Below are positions 4,493-61,622 of a stretch of DNA of 64,000 bases, piece after piece. Location of the stretch: the NCBI RefSeq assembly GCF_016756495.1, contig NZ_AP023243.1, positions 6,266,501-6,330,500 of the forward strand. The letters are read 5' to 3'. This DNA is from Mesorhizobium sp. 113-3-3. Lineage in GTDB: Bacteria > Pseudomonadota > Alphaproteobacteria > Rhizobiales > Rhizobiaceae. The stretch's first letter is position 1, and each line of letters begins with the position of its first letter. The notes beneath the pieces were generated by a model. That model saw nothing but the letters and a program-made list of their open reading frames with translations, made no database searches and was not told the DNA's origin. The translations under genes and the position numbers were made by a program.

Positions 4493-4511
4493 ATTTCAGG
4501 ACCTCGTTCCA

Positions 4512-4557
4512 TGCATGTCGACCTCCCAAAACCGCGGTCGGTTTTGAGCGACATGCA
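4512..4557. repeat. Intergenic palindromic (REP/RIME-like) repeat
   Basis: Nested inverted repeat in a convergent intergenic gap: outer arms TGCATGTCG (4512-4520) and CGACATGCA (4549-4557), inner arms AAAACCG (4528-4534) and CGGTTTT (4539-4545), loop CGGT. A very similar layout, with CATGTCG outside and AAAACCG inside, is familiar from dispersed intergenic palindromes in rhizobial genomes; that similarity is from memory. It may also serve as a bidirectional terminator. Confidence 0.7.
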
Positions 4558-4565
4558 AAACGCGA

Positions 4566-5282
4566 TCAACTTCTCCGAGTGATGTTTTGCACCAGCTCGG
4601 GCAATTGCCCGAGATCGGATATCTGGCGGAACCGCGGCTCGGCGTGCGGCGCTTCGACATGCTCGAGCACCCAGGTCAGTTCGTGCGGCACATGGACGCC
4701 CCAGCCGCCGGCCTCGATGGCCGGCACGACGTCCGATTTCAGCGAATTGCCGACCATCATGCTCTTTGCAGGGCCGTCGCCGTGGCGGCTGAAAAGACGG
4801 GAATAGGTCGCTGCATTCTTGTCGCTGACGATCTCGACCGCGTCGAACAGGTCGCCAAGGCCCGATCCGGCCAGCTTGCGCTCCTGGTCGAAGAGGTCGC
4901 CCTTGGTGATCAGCACGAGCCGGTATGCGCCGGCAAGTTTCTCCACCGTCTCGCGCACATGCGGCAAGACCTCGATCGGGTGGCCCAGCATTTCGCGGCC
5001 GGCCTCGAGGATCTCCGCTATGACCGAAGCCGGTACGCGCCCGTCGGTGACCTCGATCGCCGTTTCGATCATCGACAGGGTGAACCCCTTGATGCCGAAG
5101 CCGTAGACGGCAAGGTTGCGCCGTTCGGCCTCGAGCAATCGCGCCGAAATCTGTTGCTCCTCGCCATGATCGGCAAGCATGGCGGCAAAACGCTTCTCCG
5201 TCATGCGGAAGAACTGTTCGTTCTGCCAAAGCGTGTCGTCGGCGTCGAAGCCAATGGTCGTCAGTTCGTTGTTGTTTCGCAT
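4566..5282 (-). CDS. HAD-superfamily hydrolase
   Basis: 238 aa from ATG 5282. Motif I is GFDADDTLWQ near residues 11-20, with Asp13 as the expected nucleophile and Asp15 as acid/base; motif II is LVLITKGD; motif III/IV is MMVGNSLKSDVVPAIEAGG, giving the lysine and the acidic residues for magnesium. A helical cap lies between motifs I and II. This is a soluble phosphatase-type HAD protein; the substrate is not evident. A longer reading frame exists upstream to 5579 but its extra residues would cover the divergent promoter of the next gene and do not look like this family. The gene is divergent from a puuA-like gene. Confidence 0.85.
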   Translation of the reverse strand: MRNNNELTTIGFDADDTLWQNEQFFRMTEKRFAAMLADHGEEQQISARLLEAERRNLAVYGFGIKGFTLSMIETAIEVTDGRVPASVIAEILEAGREMLGHPIEVLPHVRETVEKLAGAYRLVLITKGDLFDQERKLAGSGLGDLFDAVEIVSDKNAATYSRLFSRHGDGPAKSMMVGNSLKSDVVPAIEAGGWGVHVPHELTWVLEHVEAPHAEPRFRQISDLGQLPELVQNITRRS

Positions 5283-5424
5283 CGATGCCTTCCGTGTTGC
5301 GAGCCGCCCGAACCTAAGCCGGCCGGCGTGATTTTCAACCGGAACGGGGAATGCCGGCAGCGCCTCCCTTCCCTTCCACAGTGGGGCACGGCTATACTCG
5401 GAAATCCGCAACCCAATCTGGTGA

Positions 5425-6861
5425 ATGATGCCGCCTGCAAAAAAGGAAGTCCGTCCGTCGAGCCGCGGAGGACGGGCGCGTACGCCTGCCTTCGTGAAAA
5501 ACCTGCGTGGTGTGAAGAACTGGAAGGAAGTCAGCGACTGGCTGGAATGGCGCGGCATCGAGGACATTGAATGCATCACGCCCGATCAGGCGGGCGTGGC
5601 GCGCGGCAAGATGATGCCGTCGAAGAAATTCACCTCCAACACCTCGCTGGCGCTGCCTTCGGCTGTCTTCATGACGACGATTTCCGGCGGCTATCCCGAA
5701 GACGGCAACGGCTTCCACTATCCGGAAGACGACGGCGACCTCAAGCTGATGCCGGACCTGTCGACGCTGACAGTAGTGCCCTGGGAAGAAGACCCGACGG
5801 CCGCCGTCATCTGCGACCTCGTCCACCAGGACGGACGCTCGGTCGAATTCACGCCGCGCAATGTGTTGAAGCGCGTGCTTGCCGCCTATGACAAGCTCGG
5901 GCTGAAGCCGGTGGTGGCGCCCGAGATCGAATTCTACCTGGTGCGCAAGAATCCGGACCCGGACTATCCGCTTACCCCGCCCGTCGGCCGCTCGGGCCGC
6001 GCGATCGGCGGCGGCGCCGGCTATTCGATCGCCGGCGTCAACGAGTTCGACGAACTGATCGACGACATCTACCATTTCTCCGAAAGCCAGGGCCTGGAGA
6101 TCGACACGCTCATCCATGAAGAGGGCGCCGGCCAGCTCGAGATCAATCTGCGCCACGGCGACCCGATCGAGCTTGCCGACCAGGTGTTCATGTTCAAGCG
6201 CACCATCCGCGAGGCGGCGCTGAAACACGAAATCTACGCCACCTTCATGGCCAAGCCGATCCAGGGCCAGCCGGGTTCGGCCATGCATATCCACCAGTCG
6301 ATCATCGACAAGAAGACCGGCAAGAATATCTTCTCGGCCGAGGACGGCTCGGAGACCGAGGCGTTCTTCCATTTCATCGGCGGCATGCAAAAGCACGTGC
6401 CGAATGCGCTGGTGATGTTTGCGCCCTATGTCAATTCCTACCGCCGGCTGACACAGGCGGCCTCGGCTCCGGTCAACAACAAATGGGGCTATGACAACCG
6501 CACCACGGCGTTCCGCGTGCCGCGTTCGGATCCGGCGGCGCGGCGCGTCGAAAACCGCATTCCGTCCTCCGACGCCAATCCCTATCTCGCGCTGGCGGCT
6601 TCGCTTGCCTGCGGGCTGATCGGCATCACCAGGAAGATCAAGGCCGAGCCGCCAGTGCTGACCACCGCCAATGCCCACGAGATCGACCTGCCGCGCAGCC
6701 TGCTCGAGGCCGTCGACCTGTTCGAGGGCGACGAGGAACTCTGCGCGCTGCTGGGCAAGTCGTTCGCCGCCACCTATGCGGCGATCAAGCGGGCGGAATT
6801 CGAGACCTTCATGGAAGTGATCAGCCCGTGGGAGCGGGAGTATTTGTTGCTGAATGTTTAG
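5425..6861 (+). CDS. puuA: Glutamine synthetase family protein, probable gamma-glutamylputrescine synthetase
   Basis: 478 aa. Glutamine-synthetase fold: an N-terminal beta-grasp domain (to about residue 120) and a catalytic domain with EIEFYLV near 170, EEGAGQLEINL near 232, the histidine motif GSAMHIHQS near 286 and the Arg-containing segment NKWGYDNRTTAFRVP near 352. Such non-GlnA synthetases ligate glutamate to an amine; PuuA makes gamma-glutamylputrescine for putrescine breakdown. The next metabolic gene is a PuuB-like oxidase, which fits this role, but related enzymes acting on other amines cannot be excluded. The stop codon TAG touches the first base of an octamer repeat array. Ribosome site before ATG 5425 is weak. 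Confidence 0.82.
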   Translation: MMPPAKKEVRPSSRGGRARTPAFVKNLRGVKNWKEVSDWLEWRGIEDIECITPDQAGVARGKMMPSKKFTSNTSLALPSAVFMTTISGGYPEDGNGFHYPEDDGDLKLMPDLSTLTVVPWEEDPTAAVICDLVHQDGRSVEFTPRNVLKRVLAAYDKLGLKPVVAPEIEFYLVRKNPDPDYPLTPPVGRSGRAIGGGAGYSIAGVNEFDELIDDIYHFSESQGLEIDTLIHEEGAGQLEINLRHGDPIELADQVFMFKRTIREAALKHEIYATFMAKPIQGQPGSAMHIHQSIIDKKTGKNIFSAEDGSETEAFFHFIGGMQKHVPNALVMFAPYVNSYRRLTQAASAPVNNKWGYDNRTTAFRVPRSDPAARRVENRIPSSDANPYLALAASLACGLIGITRKIKAEPPVLTTANAHEIDLPRSLLEAVDLFEGDEELCALLGKSFAATYAAIKRAEFETFMEVISPWEREYLLLNV

Positions 6862-6900
6862 GGGAATAAGGGAGTAAGGCAGTAGGGCAGTAGGGCGAGG
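6862..6900 (+). repeat. Left octamer repeat arm of the S23 cassette
   Basis: Starting right after the puuA stop codon: units GGGAATAA, GGGAGTAA, GGCAGTAG, GGCAGTAG, then GGCGAGG and the ATG of the S23 gene. It is the inverted form of the right arm: bases 6861-6896 match the reverse complement of 7289-7324 at 33 of 36 positions. The purine-rich end also supplies a ribosome-binding sequence for the S23 gene. Confidence 0.9.
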
Positions 6901-7269
6901 ATGGCGGCCAAGATTGAATCGTACAGAGATTTGATTGTCTGGCAGCAAGCTATGGATCTGGCGGTTTCGATCTACGAAACAACCAGAGCCTGGCCAAAGG
7001 ATGAGCGCTACGGGCTGACGGCTCAGGTACGTCGTGCAGCCACCTCCGTTCCCGCCAACATTGCCGAGGGTTACGGGCGAGAAAGCCGAGCCTCTTATCA
7101 GCAATTTCTCAGGATCGTGCAGGGATCTCTCAAAGAGTTGGAGACTCATCTGCTGATCGCGCAGCGCGTCGGAATCGCCTCTCATGAGGCAGCCGAACCA
7201 CTGATGAGCCGGAGTGAGAGCGTCGGAACCCTCTGGCGACTTCTCATCCGGAAATTGTCTCCTGAATAG
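6901..7269 (+). CDS. Four-helix-bundle protein of the S23 / 23S rRNA intervening-sequence (IVP) family
   Basis: 122 aa, typical for the family. Signature parts are visible: DLIVWQQAMDLAVSIYE at the first helix, LTAQVRRAATSVPANIAEG in the middle, then YQQFLRIVQGSLKELETHL, and a C-terminal helix with LWRLLIRKL. Family members occur inside 23S rRNA intervening sequences in spirochaetes and as free-standing genes; the related Avd protein serves diversity-generating retroelements. The molecular role of free-standing copies is not established. Base composition looks lower in GC, with codons such as AGA, TTG and TCT rare in the flanking genes, which suggests transfer. It is enclosed by inverted octamer repeats and sits between puuA- and puuB-like genes. 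Its ribosome site is made by the left repeat arm. Confidence 0.92.
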   Translation: MAAKIESYRDLIVWQQAMDLAVSIYETTRAWPKDERYGLTAQVRRAATSVPANIAEGYGRESRASYQQFLRIVQGSLKELETHLLIAQRVGIASHEAAEPLMSRSESVGTLWRLLIRKLSPE

Positions 7270-7270
7270 T

Positions 7271-7368
7271 CCTACCTACTGCCCTACTGCCCTACTGCCC
7301 TACTGCCCTACTCCCCTACTCCCCTACTCCCCTACTCCCCTACTCCCCTACTCCCCTACTCCCCTATG
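7271..7368 (+). repeat. Right octamer repeat array of the S23 cassette
   Basis: After a degenerate start (CCTACCTACT, 7271-7280) come four copies of GCCCTACT (7281-7312), six copies of CCCCTACT (7313-7360) and a final CCCCTATG (7361-7368). The last unit contains the ATG used as the first start of the puuB-like gene. The units are the reverse complement of those upstream of the S23 gene (AGTAGGGC and AGTAAGGG forms). The exact tandem copies indicate slippage expansion. Confidence 0.95.
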
Positions 7369-8661
7369 AGCACCATGCCCTATCAATCCCCCATTTCCCC
7401 CGGCCGCTCGTGGTATGAAGACACGGCGGGGCCTAGACCAGAATATCCGGCGCTGGATGGCGACCGAACCTGCGACGTTGTCATCATCGGCGGCGGCTTT
7501 ACCGGTCTGTCGGCCGCAACGCATCTCGCCAAGGCGGGAACCAATGTCGTTTTGATCGAAGCATACCGTTTCGGTGACGGCGCATCGGGCCGCAATGGCG
7601 GCCAGCTCGGCACCGGCCAGCGCGCCTGGGCCGAGGACCTGGAGGCCGAATACGGGCTGTCGCGCGCCAGGGCGCTGTTCGATCTTGCCGAGGAGGCGAA
7701 GGCGCATCTCATCGAATTCGCCGCCGCCAACCAGATCGATATCGACTACATGCCGGGCCAGCTCTCGGTGGCGCACAAGCCGCGCTATGTCGACGACTAC
7801 AAGGCGCATGCCGAGATCATGGCCAGCCGTTTCTCCTATCCGCACATCTCGTTCATGGATGCGAAGGAGACCGCAGAGCGGCTGGGCTCGACCGCCTATT
7901 TCGGCGGCACGCGCGACACCGGCACCGGCCATATCCATCCGATGAAGCTGGTGATCGGCACGGCGCGGGTGGCGGCCCAGGCCGGCGCGCAGCTGTTCGA
8001 AGGTACGCCATCGACGGGCATCGTTTCCACTGGCGGCAAGGTCAGGGTTTCCACGCCAAGAGGCACCGTGACCGCGCAGAAATGCCTGATCGCGGTCAAC
8101 GCCTATGGCGGCACGCTCGAACCGGTGAGTGCCGCGCACATCATGCCGATCGGCTCCTTCATCGGTGCGACCGTACCTTTGGGGACGGATTCGAACGTGC
8201 TGCCCGGCGGCGAGTCGGTCGATGATTCCCGCTTCGTGGTGCGTTATTTCCGCAAATCGAGGGACGGCCGGCTGCTGTTCGGCGGACGCGAGGTCTATGG
8301 CGTCAACGACCCCAAGGACATCCACATCCATATCCGCCGCCAGATCGTGGAGCTCTATCCGGCGCTGAAAGATATCGAGATCACCCATGGCTGGGGCGGC
8401 TATGTCGGCATCACTGTGCCGAGGAAGCCGTTCGTGCGCGAAGTGATGCCGAATGTGATCTCGGCCGGCGGCTATTCCGGCCACGGCGTCATGCTGTCGA
8501 ACTTCTTCGGCAAGCTCTATGCAGAGACCGTTGCCGGCAATCGCGACCGGCTGAAACTGATCGAGGACTTGAAAATTCCGCCATTTCCCGGCGGCCGGCG
8601 TTTCCGCACGCCGCTGCTTTTCCTGGCGCTCAACTGGTTCGCGCTGCGCGACCGGATCTAG
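7366..8661 (+). CDS. puuB: FAD-dependent oxidoreductase, probable gamma-glutamylputrescine oxidase
   Basis: 431 aa. A DAO-type FAD fold starts with VVIIGGGFTGLSAATHLAKAG-like Rossmann motif near residues 38-58 and the GDGASGRNGGQ segment that binds the flavin and is shared by PuuB/OrdL-type oxidases. The C-terminal part has GWGGYVGITVPRKPF and GGYSGHGVMLSN, also typical. PuuB oxidises gamma-glutamylputrescine to the aldehyde. Partner puuA lies upstream across the S23 cassette. The start is odd: ATG 7366 is the last part of the octamer array and has no purine-rich ribosome site; ATG 7375 is an alternative with the same problem. Expression may depend on read-through or coupling from upstream. 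Confidence 0.83.
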   Translation: MSTMPYQSPISPGRSWYEDTAGPRPEYPALDGDRTCDVVIIGGGFTGLSAATHLAKAGTNVVLIEAYRFGDGASGRNGGQLGTGQRAWAEDLEAEYGLSRARALFDLAEEAKAHLIEFAAANQIDIDYMPGQLSVAHKPRYVDDYKAHAEIMASRFSYPHISFMDAKETAERLGSTAYFGGTRDTGTGHIHPMKLVIGTARVAAQAGAQLFEGTPSTGIVSTGGKVRVSTPRGTVTAQKCLIAVNAYGGTLEPVSAAHIMPIGSFIGATVPLGTDSNVLPGGESVDDSRFVVRYFRKSRDGRLLFGGREVYGVNDPKDIHIHIRRQIVELYPALKDIEITHGWGGYVGITVPRKPFVREVMPNVISAGGYSGHGVMLSNFFGKLYAETVAGNRDRLKLIEDLKIPPFPGGRRFRTPLLFLALNWFALRDRI

Positions 8662-9018
8662 GGCATATCGGGGCAAAAATGCCCCCGGTTAGGGGAACTA
8701 TACGGGCCAGAAAGTGAGTCGCATGACCTGTTTCGACGCGACGCGCCTCGTGCTGGATCCAATCGCCATCACGATCTGATGTAATATTGTAATATTCATT
8801 GCCCTGGCGGCACATTGCGGAAATGCCGGTAAAGGCGCAGAATCCGCTATAATGGCGTACTGATGCCACAATCAGGGGCGAAAGGTTCGCGCTTCTGGGC
8901 GACTATTCGGGGATTGCTGCGGGCTTGCCCGTGTTGATTTTTGGGACCGATGCCGATCAGACGCCGGACTTCCGGCAACGATCGAAAGAACATTGGCCCG
9001 CTTATGGAGGTGGCGAGA
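8662..9018. other. Intergenic region after the puuB-like gene
   Basis: 357 bases. A 6-bp-stem hairpin (GGGGCA at 8670-8675, TGCCCC at 8680-8685) lies just after the puuB stop but lacks a T-run, so it is at best a weak terminator. AATATT occurs twice at 8786-8800, an AT-rich patch that may belong to a promoter for the SH3 gene. An open frame with TTG 8941 or ATG 8950 could extend the SH3 gene into this region. Nothing else was recognised. Confidence 0.4.
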
Positions 9019-9888
9019 GTGAGAGAGCCCTTCAGTTTCGGTGTTCCGGAACGTCGGCGCTTTGCCATGCAGTTTGGATACGACATGCGGCCGTCCTTCT
9101 GGCAGGAAGTCCGTTCGAACTCGCATCTGGTGATTGCAGCGGTCGGCACCGCCGCGCTGCTCGGCGTGGCCGCGGTGGCGCTCTGGCTGGCATTGCCAAC
9201 AAGCGAGCGGCAAGCAGCCGCCAGCCAGGAACAGAGCATTCCGACCATTCCGGTGAAAACGACGAAGATCGTGCCTGCCGGAACCACTGTGGCCGCGGCG
9301 ACCGTGCCGCAGCCCGCCCGCAAGTCCGACCAGGTCTCACCGACGACCGTGGCGGCGGTGAAAGCCAACATACAAGCGCTTGCCGCCAATAACCCCCGTT
9401 GGACCGAGGCCCAGCCGAAGCCCGCTTCGGCGGCATCCGATCAGGCGGCCACCCCTGACCAGGCTGAACCGGCGCCGGACAAACCGGCCACCGCCGCGGC
9501 ATTCGCACAATCGGCGACCGATACGGACGCTACTGCCGAACTTGCCAAGGTTGCCGCGCCGGCACCGGCGGCAGGCAGCAGTCCTGATGGAGCGAAGACC
9601 GCCGCCATCCCGCAAGTGCAGCCGCAAGCACCCGAGCAGCAGCCGGCGGCGAGCGATGACGATGGCAGCAACGCCAAGGCCAAGCATCGCAAAGTGGCGG
9701 CGGCCGGCAATGGGCGCATCCTGAGGGCAGTGACCATGCGCAGCGGCCCGAAGAAGAACGCAGCCGCCATCGGCACCGTGCCGGCAAGGACGTCGGTGCA
9801 GGTGATGAACTGCAAGCAATGGTGCCAAATCGTCTACAACGGCAAGACCGGCTGGATCTACAAGAGCTACATCAAGGCCGGCGGCTGA
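9019..9888 (+). CDS. Membrane-anchored bacterial SH3-domain protein
   Basis: 289 aa from GTG 9019, chosen because GGAGG lies 8 bases upstream; in-frame starts at TTG 8941, ATG 8950 and ATG 9004 are possible. A short cytoplasmic N-terminus is followed by one membrane helix (residues about 36-58, LVIAAVGTAALLGVAAVALW), a long Ala/Pro/Gln-rich low-complexity linker (about 60-215), and a C-terminal SH3b domain (VTMRSGPKKNAAAIGTVPA to GKTGWIYKSYI). SH3b domains of this kind bind peptidoglycan or peptides in the periplasm, so a cell-envelope role is likely. It is convergent with an SDR gene. Exact function unknown. Confidence 0.8.
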   Translation: MREPFSFGVPERRRFAMQFGYDMRPSFWQEVRSNSHLVIAAVGTAALLGVAAVALWLALPTSERQAAASQEQSIPTIPVKTTKIVPAGTTVAAATVPQPARKSDQVSPTTVAAVKANIQALAANNPRWTEAQPKPASAASDQAATPDQAEPAPDKPATAAAFAQSATDTDATAELAKVAAPAPAAGSSPDGAKTAAIPQVQPQAPEQQPAASDDDGSNAKAKHRKVAAAGNGRILRAVTMRSGPKKNAAAIGTVPARTSVQVMNCKQWCQIVYNGKTGWIYKSYIKAGG

Positions 9889-61576: not shown

Positions 61577-61622
61577 CCGATCGCAGCGGGCGAATCCCGC
61601 ATTGGGGCTTGGGGCTTGGGAC

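Follow-up and report, generated by a model that had tools for sequence, protein, structure and literature searches.

The S23 locus of Mesorhizobium sp. 113-3-3

The stretch of DNA analysed here, referred to throughout as the window, comprises 64 kb of the 7.73 Mb genome of Mesorhizobium sp. 113-3-3 (G000), which carries one S23 gene; among named database entries the product of this gene is matched best by Mesorhizobium proteins. This gene lies at 6901–7269 on the forward strand, encodes a product of 122 aa and is situated between two protein-coding genes of the same orientation: a puuA-like gene of the glutamine synthetase family (5425–6861, 478 aa) and a puuB-like gene for an FAD-dependent oxidoreductase (7375–8661). 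The names given to these neighbours in the initial annotation stand as family resemblance only; the downstream product is a DAO-type FAD oxidoreductase according to its profile matches, whereas the upstream product scores 223.8 bits against NF045547 (GGputSyn), below the cut-off of 650.

The central product exceeds the curated cut-offs of PF05635 (123.9 bits, cut-off 33.8), TIGR02436 (116.5 bits, cut-off 24) and NF008911 (173.6 bits, cut-off 137) in profile searches and has a predicted four-helix fold, so that its identification from the letters as an S23/IVP four-helix-bundle protein was correct. The AF2 model is a four-helix bundle with a mean pLDDT of 93.7, and Foldseek aligned it best with the S23 structures 2gsc (TM to query length 0.90) and 2rld (0.77–0.80), followed by Avd (4dwl, 0.72–0.76) and the DGR ribonucleoprotein 8ub7 (the two together spanning about 0.72–0.77). 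Against the Avd equivalog profile NF033474 (DivGenRetAVD) the protein scores 20.8 bits, the cut-off being 80. PF05635 was the sole Pfam match, and no transposase, nuclease or recombinase domain was detected in the 122 aa; the site-specific nuclease of a homing element is therefore lacking from the protein. In the Xanthomonas S23 protein (2gsc), four-helix bundles reportedly assemble into a homopentamer (PMC4990558). A resident reverse transcriptase was considered as a requirement for keeping the S23 gene and rejected, RVT_1 being absent from 54 of the 118 S23-positive genomes of the genus; G000 itself has one RVT_1 match, at C1:6567571, and the window ends at C1:6330500, so that the S23 gene lacks the adjacent reverse transcriptase of a DGR.

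The S23 gene is enclosed by two tandem arrays in inverted orientation. The left arm (6859–6896, forward strand), located by arm comparison and with an array finder, is composed of units of about 8 nt, TAGGGGAA TAAGGGAG TAAGGCAG TAGGGCAG followed by TAGGGC. The right arm (7275–7366, reverse strand) has units which are the reverse complement of those on the left; in an 8-nt register, counted by eye, it contains four copies of GCCCTACT, six of CCCCTACT and a partial unit. When the arms are compared directly, 6859–6896 is 92% complementary to 7289–7326 over 38 nt, with a spacing of 392 nt, bearing out the inverted octamer arrays first noted here. By eye, CAG is found in the inner units (GGGCAG/CTGCCC) and CTCCCC in the outer right units, and the order of unit variants in the two arms is roughly mirrored. 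The array finder returned five tandem arrays from the window, the two arms being the only ones built of 8-mers, and none from three mononucleotide-shuffled copies. Automatic pairing, in which one mismatch was allowed between consensus units, failed to pair the two arms; their inverted match rests on the direct comparison. A direct heptamer run at 61602–61620 (TTGGGGC, 2.7 copies, 19 nt) is the sole 7-mer array among the five.

The array had been described as filling the gap between the puuA stop and the puuB start exactly. This is nearly so: the TAG stop at 6859–6861 doubles as the first unit of the left array, but the native start of the downstream gene, the reading frame of which is open from 7366, is placed at 7375 by comparison with empty sites. 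The S23 gene is, as had been suspected, lower in GC (0.558, GC3 0.61) than its neighbours (0.626, GC3 0.84, and 0.636, GC3 0.80). A computed RNA fold pairs both arms (−216.8 kcal/mol, z −4.56), and an Rfam search of 4500–9500 at E 0.1 matched no family.

The puuA–puuB junction across the genus

A puuB query matched all 146 genomes of the genus, at least three of them weakly (G069, G070, G122). The junction census covers 90 of these genomes, namely the 30 best matches, 53 taken as alternate rows of the ranking with contig-edge rows skipped, and 7 picked as S23-negative. An S23 gene was present in 35 junctions and an internally deleted one in a further junction (L043), 27 held an insert lacking S23, 16 were empty, 5 were classed as other and 6 ran into a contig edge; an S23-less insert is here any junction above 25 bp without an S23 core, five spacers having been moved by hand to the class "other". 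The seven genomes picked for missing S23 were divided between empty (4), S23-less insert (2) and other (1). The empty junctions are 15–21 bp long and carry no array, and it is these, together with the other states found at the same site, which support the earlier suggestion of an insertable cassette.

In filled junctions the S23 reading frame is at least 110 aa long in 28 of 35 and shorter, that is broken, in 7. The upstream gene ends with TGA at 12 of the 16 empty sites and with TAG or TAA, mostly the array's own stop, at 29 of the 35 filled with S23; in 34 of these 35, stops occur in all three frames within the first 60 nt. Of the S23-less inserts, 25 out of 27 form a better fold-back than any of 40 shuffled versions, the exceptions being L050 and L303. 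On visual inspection the inserts consist of heptamers of other units (GCGAATA, GTGAATG and others), arrayed in inverted orientation around short loops. No target-site duplication was seen when filled and empty puuA–puuB sites were compared by eye; the element thus has neither the duplication nor the transposase domain of an insertion sequence or MITE.

Several junctions show further peculiarities. The empty junctions L299, L305, L308 and L321 carry TAGGGCAC ahead of the native spacer, possibly as a scar of one unit that remained when the element was lost. In five genomes (L035, L052, L268, L291 and L296, from G020, G082, G090, G089 and G107, respectively) draft contigs break off within the puuA–puuB arrays, and drafts may consequently under-count these elements. 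At L148 (G112, C40:1-1600) the S23 cassette is antiparallel to puuB with its arms kept; either a flip through recombination between the inverted arms or a contig-end assembly effect is possible.

Arms and periodicity at other S23 loci

S23 genes were found in 118 of the 146 genomes of the genus, with one to six copies each. They fall at few junctions, which include, besides puuA–puuB with its octamers, acyl-CoA dehydrogenase–HIBADH-like (unit GGCAGTA) and nuoC–nuoD-like (units GTGAATG and AGTAGTG), the latter two being named from flanking peptides. Outside the genus, a phylum sample yielded S23 in 62 of 398 genomes, and loci were added from a scan of named genomes, in which the best 80 of at least 585 loci were used, and from viral contigs (29 loci, which may be host DNA). 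The best 80 named loci include members of the Cyanobacteria, Bacteroidota, Planctomycetota, Acidobacteriota and Chloroflexota, Clostridia-type MAGs and a Methanophagales archaeon.

Arms were scored by comparing the upstream flank of each locus with the reverse complement of its downstream flank. The threshold of 18.8 is the 99th percentile of 938 mismatched non-genus pairs, same-site genus loci having been kept out of this null. The 157 non-genus loci of the three sources have a median score of 19, against 9 for mismatched loci, and 81 of them exceed the threshold; this set retains the near-duplicates L130/L131, L104/L105, L100/L142, L246–L248/L259 and L249/L251. Amongst the first-listed genus loci 28 of 31 exceed it, with L021, L024 and L029 just under. 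Under one threshold, therefore, arrays flank other S23 copies beyond chance, in line with what the initial annotation had envisaged. Such arms are uncommon at neighbouring genes: 46 of the 80 named S23 loci have arms over threshold, compared with 2 of 94 neighbouring genes of the same loci, and a 7- or 8-nt period at z >3.5 was found in 57 of 80 compared with 3 of 94.

The octamer, which had been taken as the repeat type, is true of the window, but the 7-nt unit is commoner elsewhere: the best period among the 81 passing loci is 7 nt in 67, 8 nt in 10 and another length in 4, and the mean z over non-genus loci is 4.55 at lag 7 and at most 0.5 at every other lag. The units themselves differ by locus (GGTTGCA, GGGAGTC, AATAGGG, CCACTAA, GACAAGG and others).

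That S23 and inverted repeats occur together outside rRNA was also upheld: protein genes flank both sides in the window, and a 23S motif scan of 109 loci flagged none convincingly. By a crude longest-ORF call of direction, which fails for copies inside genes, both flanking genes are co-directional with S23 in 51 of the 80 named loci and both opposed in 7. In 23 of 29 testable loci, no more than 13 nt separate the upstream stop from the beginning of the arm. Among individual loci, L130 and L131 (both G357) have identical flanks over the compared stretch, perhaps through segmental duplication. In two genomes (L116, L140) the S23 gene lies, from a reading of the peptides, between accB-like and accC-like genes, with its stop near the accC start. 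At L122, L125, L126, L129 and L132 it is directly upstream of a gene beginning MSHQS or similar, presumably cysN-like, a recurrent operon junction.

Site fidelity, exchange and selection

The presence of S23 at puuA–puuB follows the phylogeny of the flanks no better than shuffled labels do. On a flank tree of 84 junctions, which is short (540 columns) and prone to recombination, S23 state required 28 changes against a mean of 26.3 for shuffled labels (433 of 500 as low), and 10 of the 28 are forced by strongly supported branches. The S23 proteins, in contrast to shuffled labels, keep to their sites: across six sites the protein tree required 5 site changes, the minimum possible, compared with 44.2 after shuffling, in a tree of 92 rows with an assigned site and 141 without, repeat loci of one genome being kept. 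Transfer between sites is hardly seen on this tree, which weighs against mobility.

At puuA–puuB, over the 27 usable S23 genes, the pS is 0.74 for S23 and 0.42 for the flanks, on scales which are not strictly equal as GC3 differs between the two, and the correlation between them is weak (rho 0.20). L045 and L056 have close flanks (pS 0.24), yet their S23 genes are divergent (pS 0.75) and belong to different clades, whilst L283 and L287 have distant flanks (pS 0.39) and nearly the same S23 gene (pS 0.10). The right-arm unit tracks the S23 subclade (14/4 versus 2/11, with 31 of 36 classed, p 0.001), and unit composition covaries between left and right arms (rho 0.63, n=36 elements). S23 lineages are therefore faithful to their site, yet swapped between species, and the discordant pairs, the link between arm and subclade and the covariation of the arms together indicate that the gene and its arms are exchanged as one unit at their own site. 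A homing element would vary in its presence at a given site and spread laterally there, and both features are observed; ordinary recombination of flanking DNA, together with loss, could be the source of part of the pattern.

The S23 protein is under purifying selection, with a dN/dS of about 0.07 in unsaturated pairs from 27 of the 35 puuA–puuB S23 genes; the other 8 were dropped for an unsuitable automatic start or frame, and L289, which looks frameshifted, was retained.

Copies inside genes

Frame S23+2 stays open across the entire S23 gene and at least 30 codons to either side in 9 of 215 loci, and in six of these both parts of one host gene, encoding an error-prone polymerase, PglX or an IIG/DrmMI-like methylase, lie in the open frame. 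Profile continuity across the insert is tight for the error-prone DNA polymerases of L204 (4–566 and 569–1047) and L245 (5–573 and 562–1047), PglX of L253 (317–1007 and 1015–1209) and the IIG enzyme of L161 (2–495 and 505–665). It is looser for L162 and L168, in which the DrmMI-type profile ends near 440 and picks up near 591–596; for L167, L177 and L196 the matches are no more than partial ones of methylase type, so that their host gene is less sure. The arms of seven of the nine have a period of 7 or 8 nt at z >4, and no clear arms were seen in L196 and L253.

The proportion of synonymous shuffles leaving the frame open is 0.231 for L168, 0.123 for L177, 0.080 for L196, 0.066 for L245, 0.058 for L161, 0.026 for L162, 0.019 for L167, 0.007 for L204 and <0.001 for L253, values which form no fair joint test as the nine were chosen for openness. 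A tendency to an open +2 frame is also present in junction S23 genes, which have 5.46 stops in it against 6.78 in synonymous shuffles, and the frame is open in 7 of 200 other S23 genes, with closed flanks, where 1.5 would be expected; an open +2 frame alone is consequently weak evidence of host translation. Nor is the constant +2 frame of the in-gene copies independent evidence, because frame +1 of S23 contains stops in all 200 other genes. It is profile continuity which is independent support for the putative insertion within genes.

The read-through insert of L204 is matched by four more database proteins (best 61% identity over 98%, at the level of protein, not DNA), three of which have all the error-prone-polymerase domains and one most of them. 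In our reading, an EHRRG-like motif of these L204-type proteins would be the S23 core NIAEG read in frame +2. In protein P0122 the S23 core seems to be altered, with the host frame continuing. The host is probably translated through the insert. RNA splicing was considered for these copies and judged unlikely; as they keep the frame open, it would not be needed.

Arrays without S23

G000 was searched for hairpins with one IUPAC pattern of four TAG-headed heptamers, which gives an incomplete catalogue as TAG-headed 7-mers alone are covered. The pattern matched 27 times at 8 places, and its reversed control once. By eye, imperfect heptamers in inverted orientation make up a short hairpin at each of the 8 places, with raw inverted-arm scores of 17 to 29.5; one lies, in our reading, between F1-ATPase beta-like and epsilon-like genes. 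The pattern was found in 139 of the 146 genus genomes, with few matches of the control. S23-positive genomes (n=118) have a median of 36 matches, S23-negative ones (n=28) 12 (p 2e-6), and with genomes below 5 Mb excluded the medians are 37 and 18 (p 4e-4), the arms of the S23 genes themselves being counted in the positive genomes.

Relation to known systems

The closest parallel is provided by the rRNA intervening sequences (IVSs) of Leptospira and Coxiella, which likewise have an S23-family ORF within terminal inverted repeats and have been called selfish. In Coxiella, heptameric repeats are reported beside the S23 start (PMC4990558), which fits kinship with the element described here; the same source judges the S23 ORF expendable and probably not made in vivo. 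The window element differs in lying in an operon junction of protein genes instead of an rRNA gene, in its arms of tandem 8-mers and in the purifying selection on S23. Its protein and inverted repeats make it kin to the rRNA IVSs, but its location is not that of an IVS. In the literature searched, no paper combined two of the S23/IVP terms, and S23 and a heptamer term occurred together, among the matches listed, in the Coxiella IVS paper only.

Intergenic arrays of 7-nt tandem repeats are known from Xanthomonas (GGGAATC; two genomes have 70 and 75 inverted pairs, respectively), Nostoc (GGGGATT/GGGGACT) and Beggiatoaceae/Microcystis (TAACTGA), inverted pairs being few in Nostoc and single in the Beggiatoa set (PMC4692102, PMC4679880). 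These resemble the arms of S23 loci in period, tandem arrangement and intergenic position and, in Xanthomonas, in often forming inverted pairs. The main text of the two papers does not mention S23 or four-helix proteins, and PMC4692102 describes the arrays as without link to mobile elements and as regions of raised stability. The published findings on Nostoc and Xanthomonas count against making all such arrays remnants of an S23 element.

Avd of the DGRs shares the four-helix-bundle fold (TM about 0.72–0.77); however, the S23 score is under the NCBIfam cut-off, and no RT, TR or VR adjoins the S23 gene. The Rickettsia palindromic elements (RPE) are palindromic inserts in frame within coding genes, and the paper describing them contains no occurrence of "heptamer" or "S23" (PMC10969869). 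The S23 element shares the short palindromic kind with RPE and other MITEs, but encodes S23 in a second frame. REPIN/RAYT systems combine one protein gene, for a REP-associated tyrosine transposase, with inverted repeats and many short genomic relatives, the REP repeat being a fixed palindrome. The S23 protein, by contrast, has PF05635 only, and its units are variable heptamers. Lastly, 18 genes of the S23 family have been reported from cas loci, where one separates cmr3 from cmr2, and read as CRISPR-Cas-associated (PMC3936711); the habit of occupying operon junctions offers another reason for their presence there.

Interpretation

The reading we favour, and consider moderately probable, is that the window contains a single S23 element, selfish and homing-like, in which a gene for an S23 ring protein is combined with two inverted 7-/8-nt arrays travelling with it. 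This reading builds on what was computed about the arrays (their association with S23, their period and the match between arms), about the sites (empty junctions, fidelity and lateral exchange) and about the reading frames (purifying selection on S23, open host frames). That the unit is mobile is somewhat better supported and appears likely; "mobile" rests on allele exchange and presence/absence, because transfer between sites is hardly seen. The element would settle where an insertion into a host transcript can be tolerated: at the stop codon that ends the upstream gene in an operon, the array supplying stops; within a few large genes for DNA processing, S23 being in another frame and that of the host left open; or in rRNA, as the S23-bearing intervening sequences. 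The S23 protein would be required for movement, and spread at a site would proceed by copying into an empty allele through host recombination or repair. Hairpins lacking S23 may be non-autonomous or decayed copies. We are doubtful, though willing to entertain it, that the S23 ring binds the repeats; were the pentamer to grip them in single-stranded form, each subunit taking roughly one unit, the period would be fixed at 7 or 8, the sequence free and the arms matched. This reading must also accommodate the 76 of 157 non-genus loci under the arm threshold, including the archaeal L193 (18.0), the pattern matches in 22 of the 28 S23-negative genomes, the broken S23 genes at filled junctions and the small net charge of the S23 proteins (median +2, 213 proteins), all of which weigh against it.

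The same observations allow an operon-internal RNA device, which we regard as unlikely but as the most serious competitor. Here the flanking genes would be uncoupled when RNase III cleaves a long hairpin that the arms form in the mRNA, and S23 would bind the arms and regulate its own synthesis; the whole would be kept for its function, inherited vertically, often lost and swapped by ordinary recombination. The predicted stem (z −4.56), the prevalence of co-directional neighbours (51/80), the purifying selection and the confinement of S23 clades to one site all agree with such a device, and RNase III processing has been reported for the Coxiella rRNA IVS (PMC4990558). However, close relatives manage without the element, deeply different S23 clades occur on close flanks, and cleavage would ruin the host message of the in-gene copies.

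An improbable alternative is that S23 acts like Avd, which is said to be essential for the retrohoming of DGRs (PMC10053308), and makes an RNA copy of the element available to an RT encoded elsewhere. The likeness of its fold to Avd in DGR ribonucleoproteins (4dwl, 8ub7, TM about 0.72–0.77) and the weak DivGenRetAVD match (20.8 bits) point this way, whereas no RT lies inside the unit and RVT_1 is missing in 54 of the 118 S23-positive genus genomes.

Excision and rejoining at the RNA level, as in an intron-like intervening sequence, would be in keeping with the name and history of the family and with arms predicted to pair, but is very improbable given that the host frame of in-gene copies is stop-free through arms and S23, which splicing would not need, and that the array mostly provides the upstream stop at puuA–puuB. 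Equally hard to credit is S23 as a passenger landing by chance in arrays that are a host feature of operon junctions: G000 has S23-less hairpins at 8 places to one S23 element and arrays occur in S23-negative genomes too, yet the arm unit tracks the S23 subclade, differs between loci whilst matching across the gene, and such arms are rare at neighbouring genes (2/94).

Returning to the S23 element, its members are in our reading a site-faithful, homing-like selfish class of which the rRNA IVSs are a special case. A wider version, in which a single such class extends across the prokaryotes, is offered tentatively and falls short of being probable. Its hallmark would be inverted arrays of fixed 7-/8-nt period and free sequence, because a pentameric ring would hold single-stranded repeats one unit per subunit, and the rRNA IVSs, the two-frame inserts in genes for DNA polymerases and phage-defence methylases and part of the unexplained intergenic heptamer arrays (those of this genus, of Xanthomonas and perhaps of cyanobacteria) would be its forms or remnants. 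Our confidence in it was lowered slightly by published findings on the arrays of Nostoc and Xanthomonas, which speak against their having come from a mobile element.

Implications

Structures of S23 proteins have been solved since 2006 (2gsc), yet their function is not known in the literature searched, and heptamer repeats are over-represented in many bacterial genomes, with a role described as still open (PMC4692102). A second surprise is a whole protein-coding element within genes for DNA polymerase or defence methylases, where the host frame is apparently left open in another frame. In annotation, an S23 gene that lies between cas genes need not be assigned to their pathway (PMC3936711). 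The link between S23 and heptamer arrays makes both the binding of repeats by the ring and the spread of the unit directly testable, and the inverted 7-/8-letter runs at S23 genes may contribute to an explanation of bacterial repeats that have been puzzling so far.
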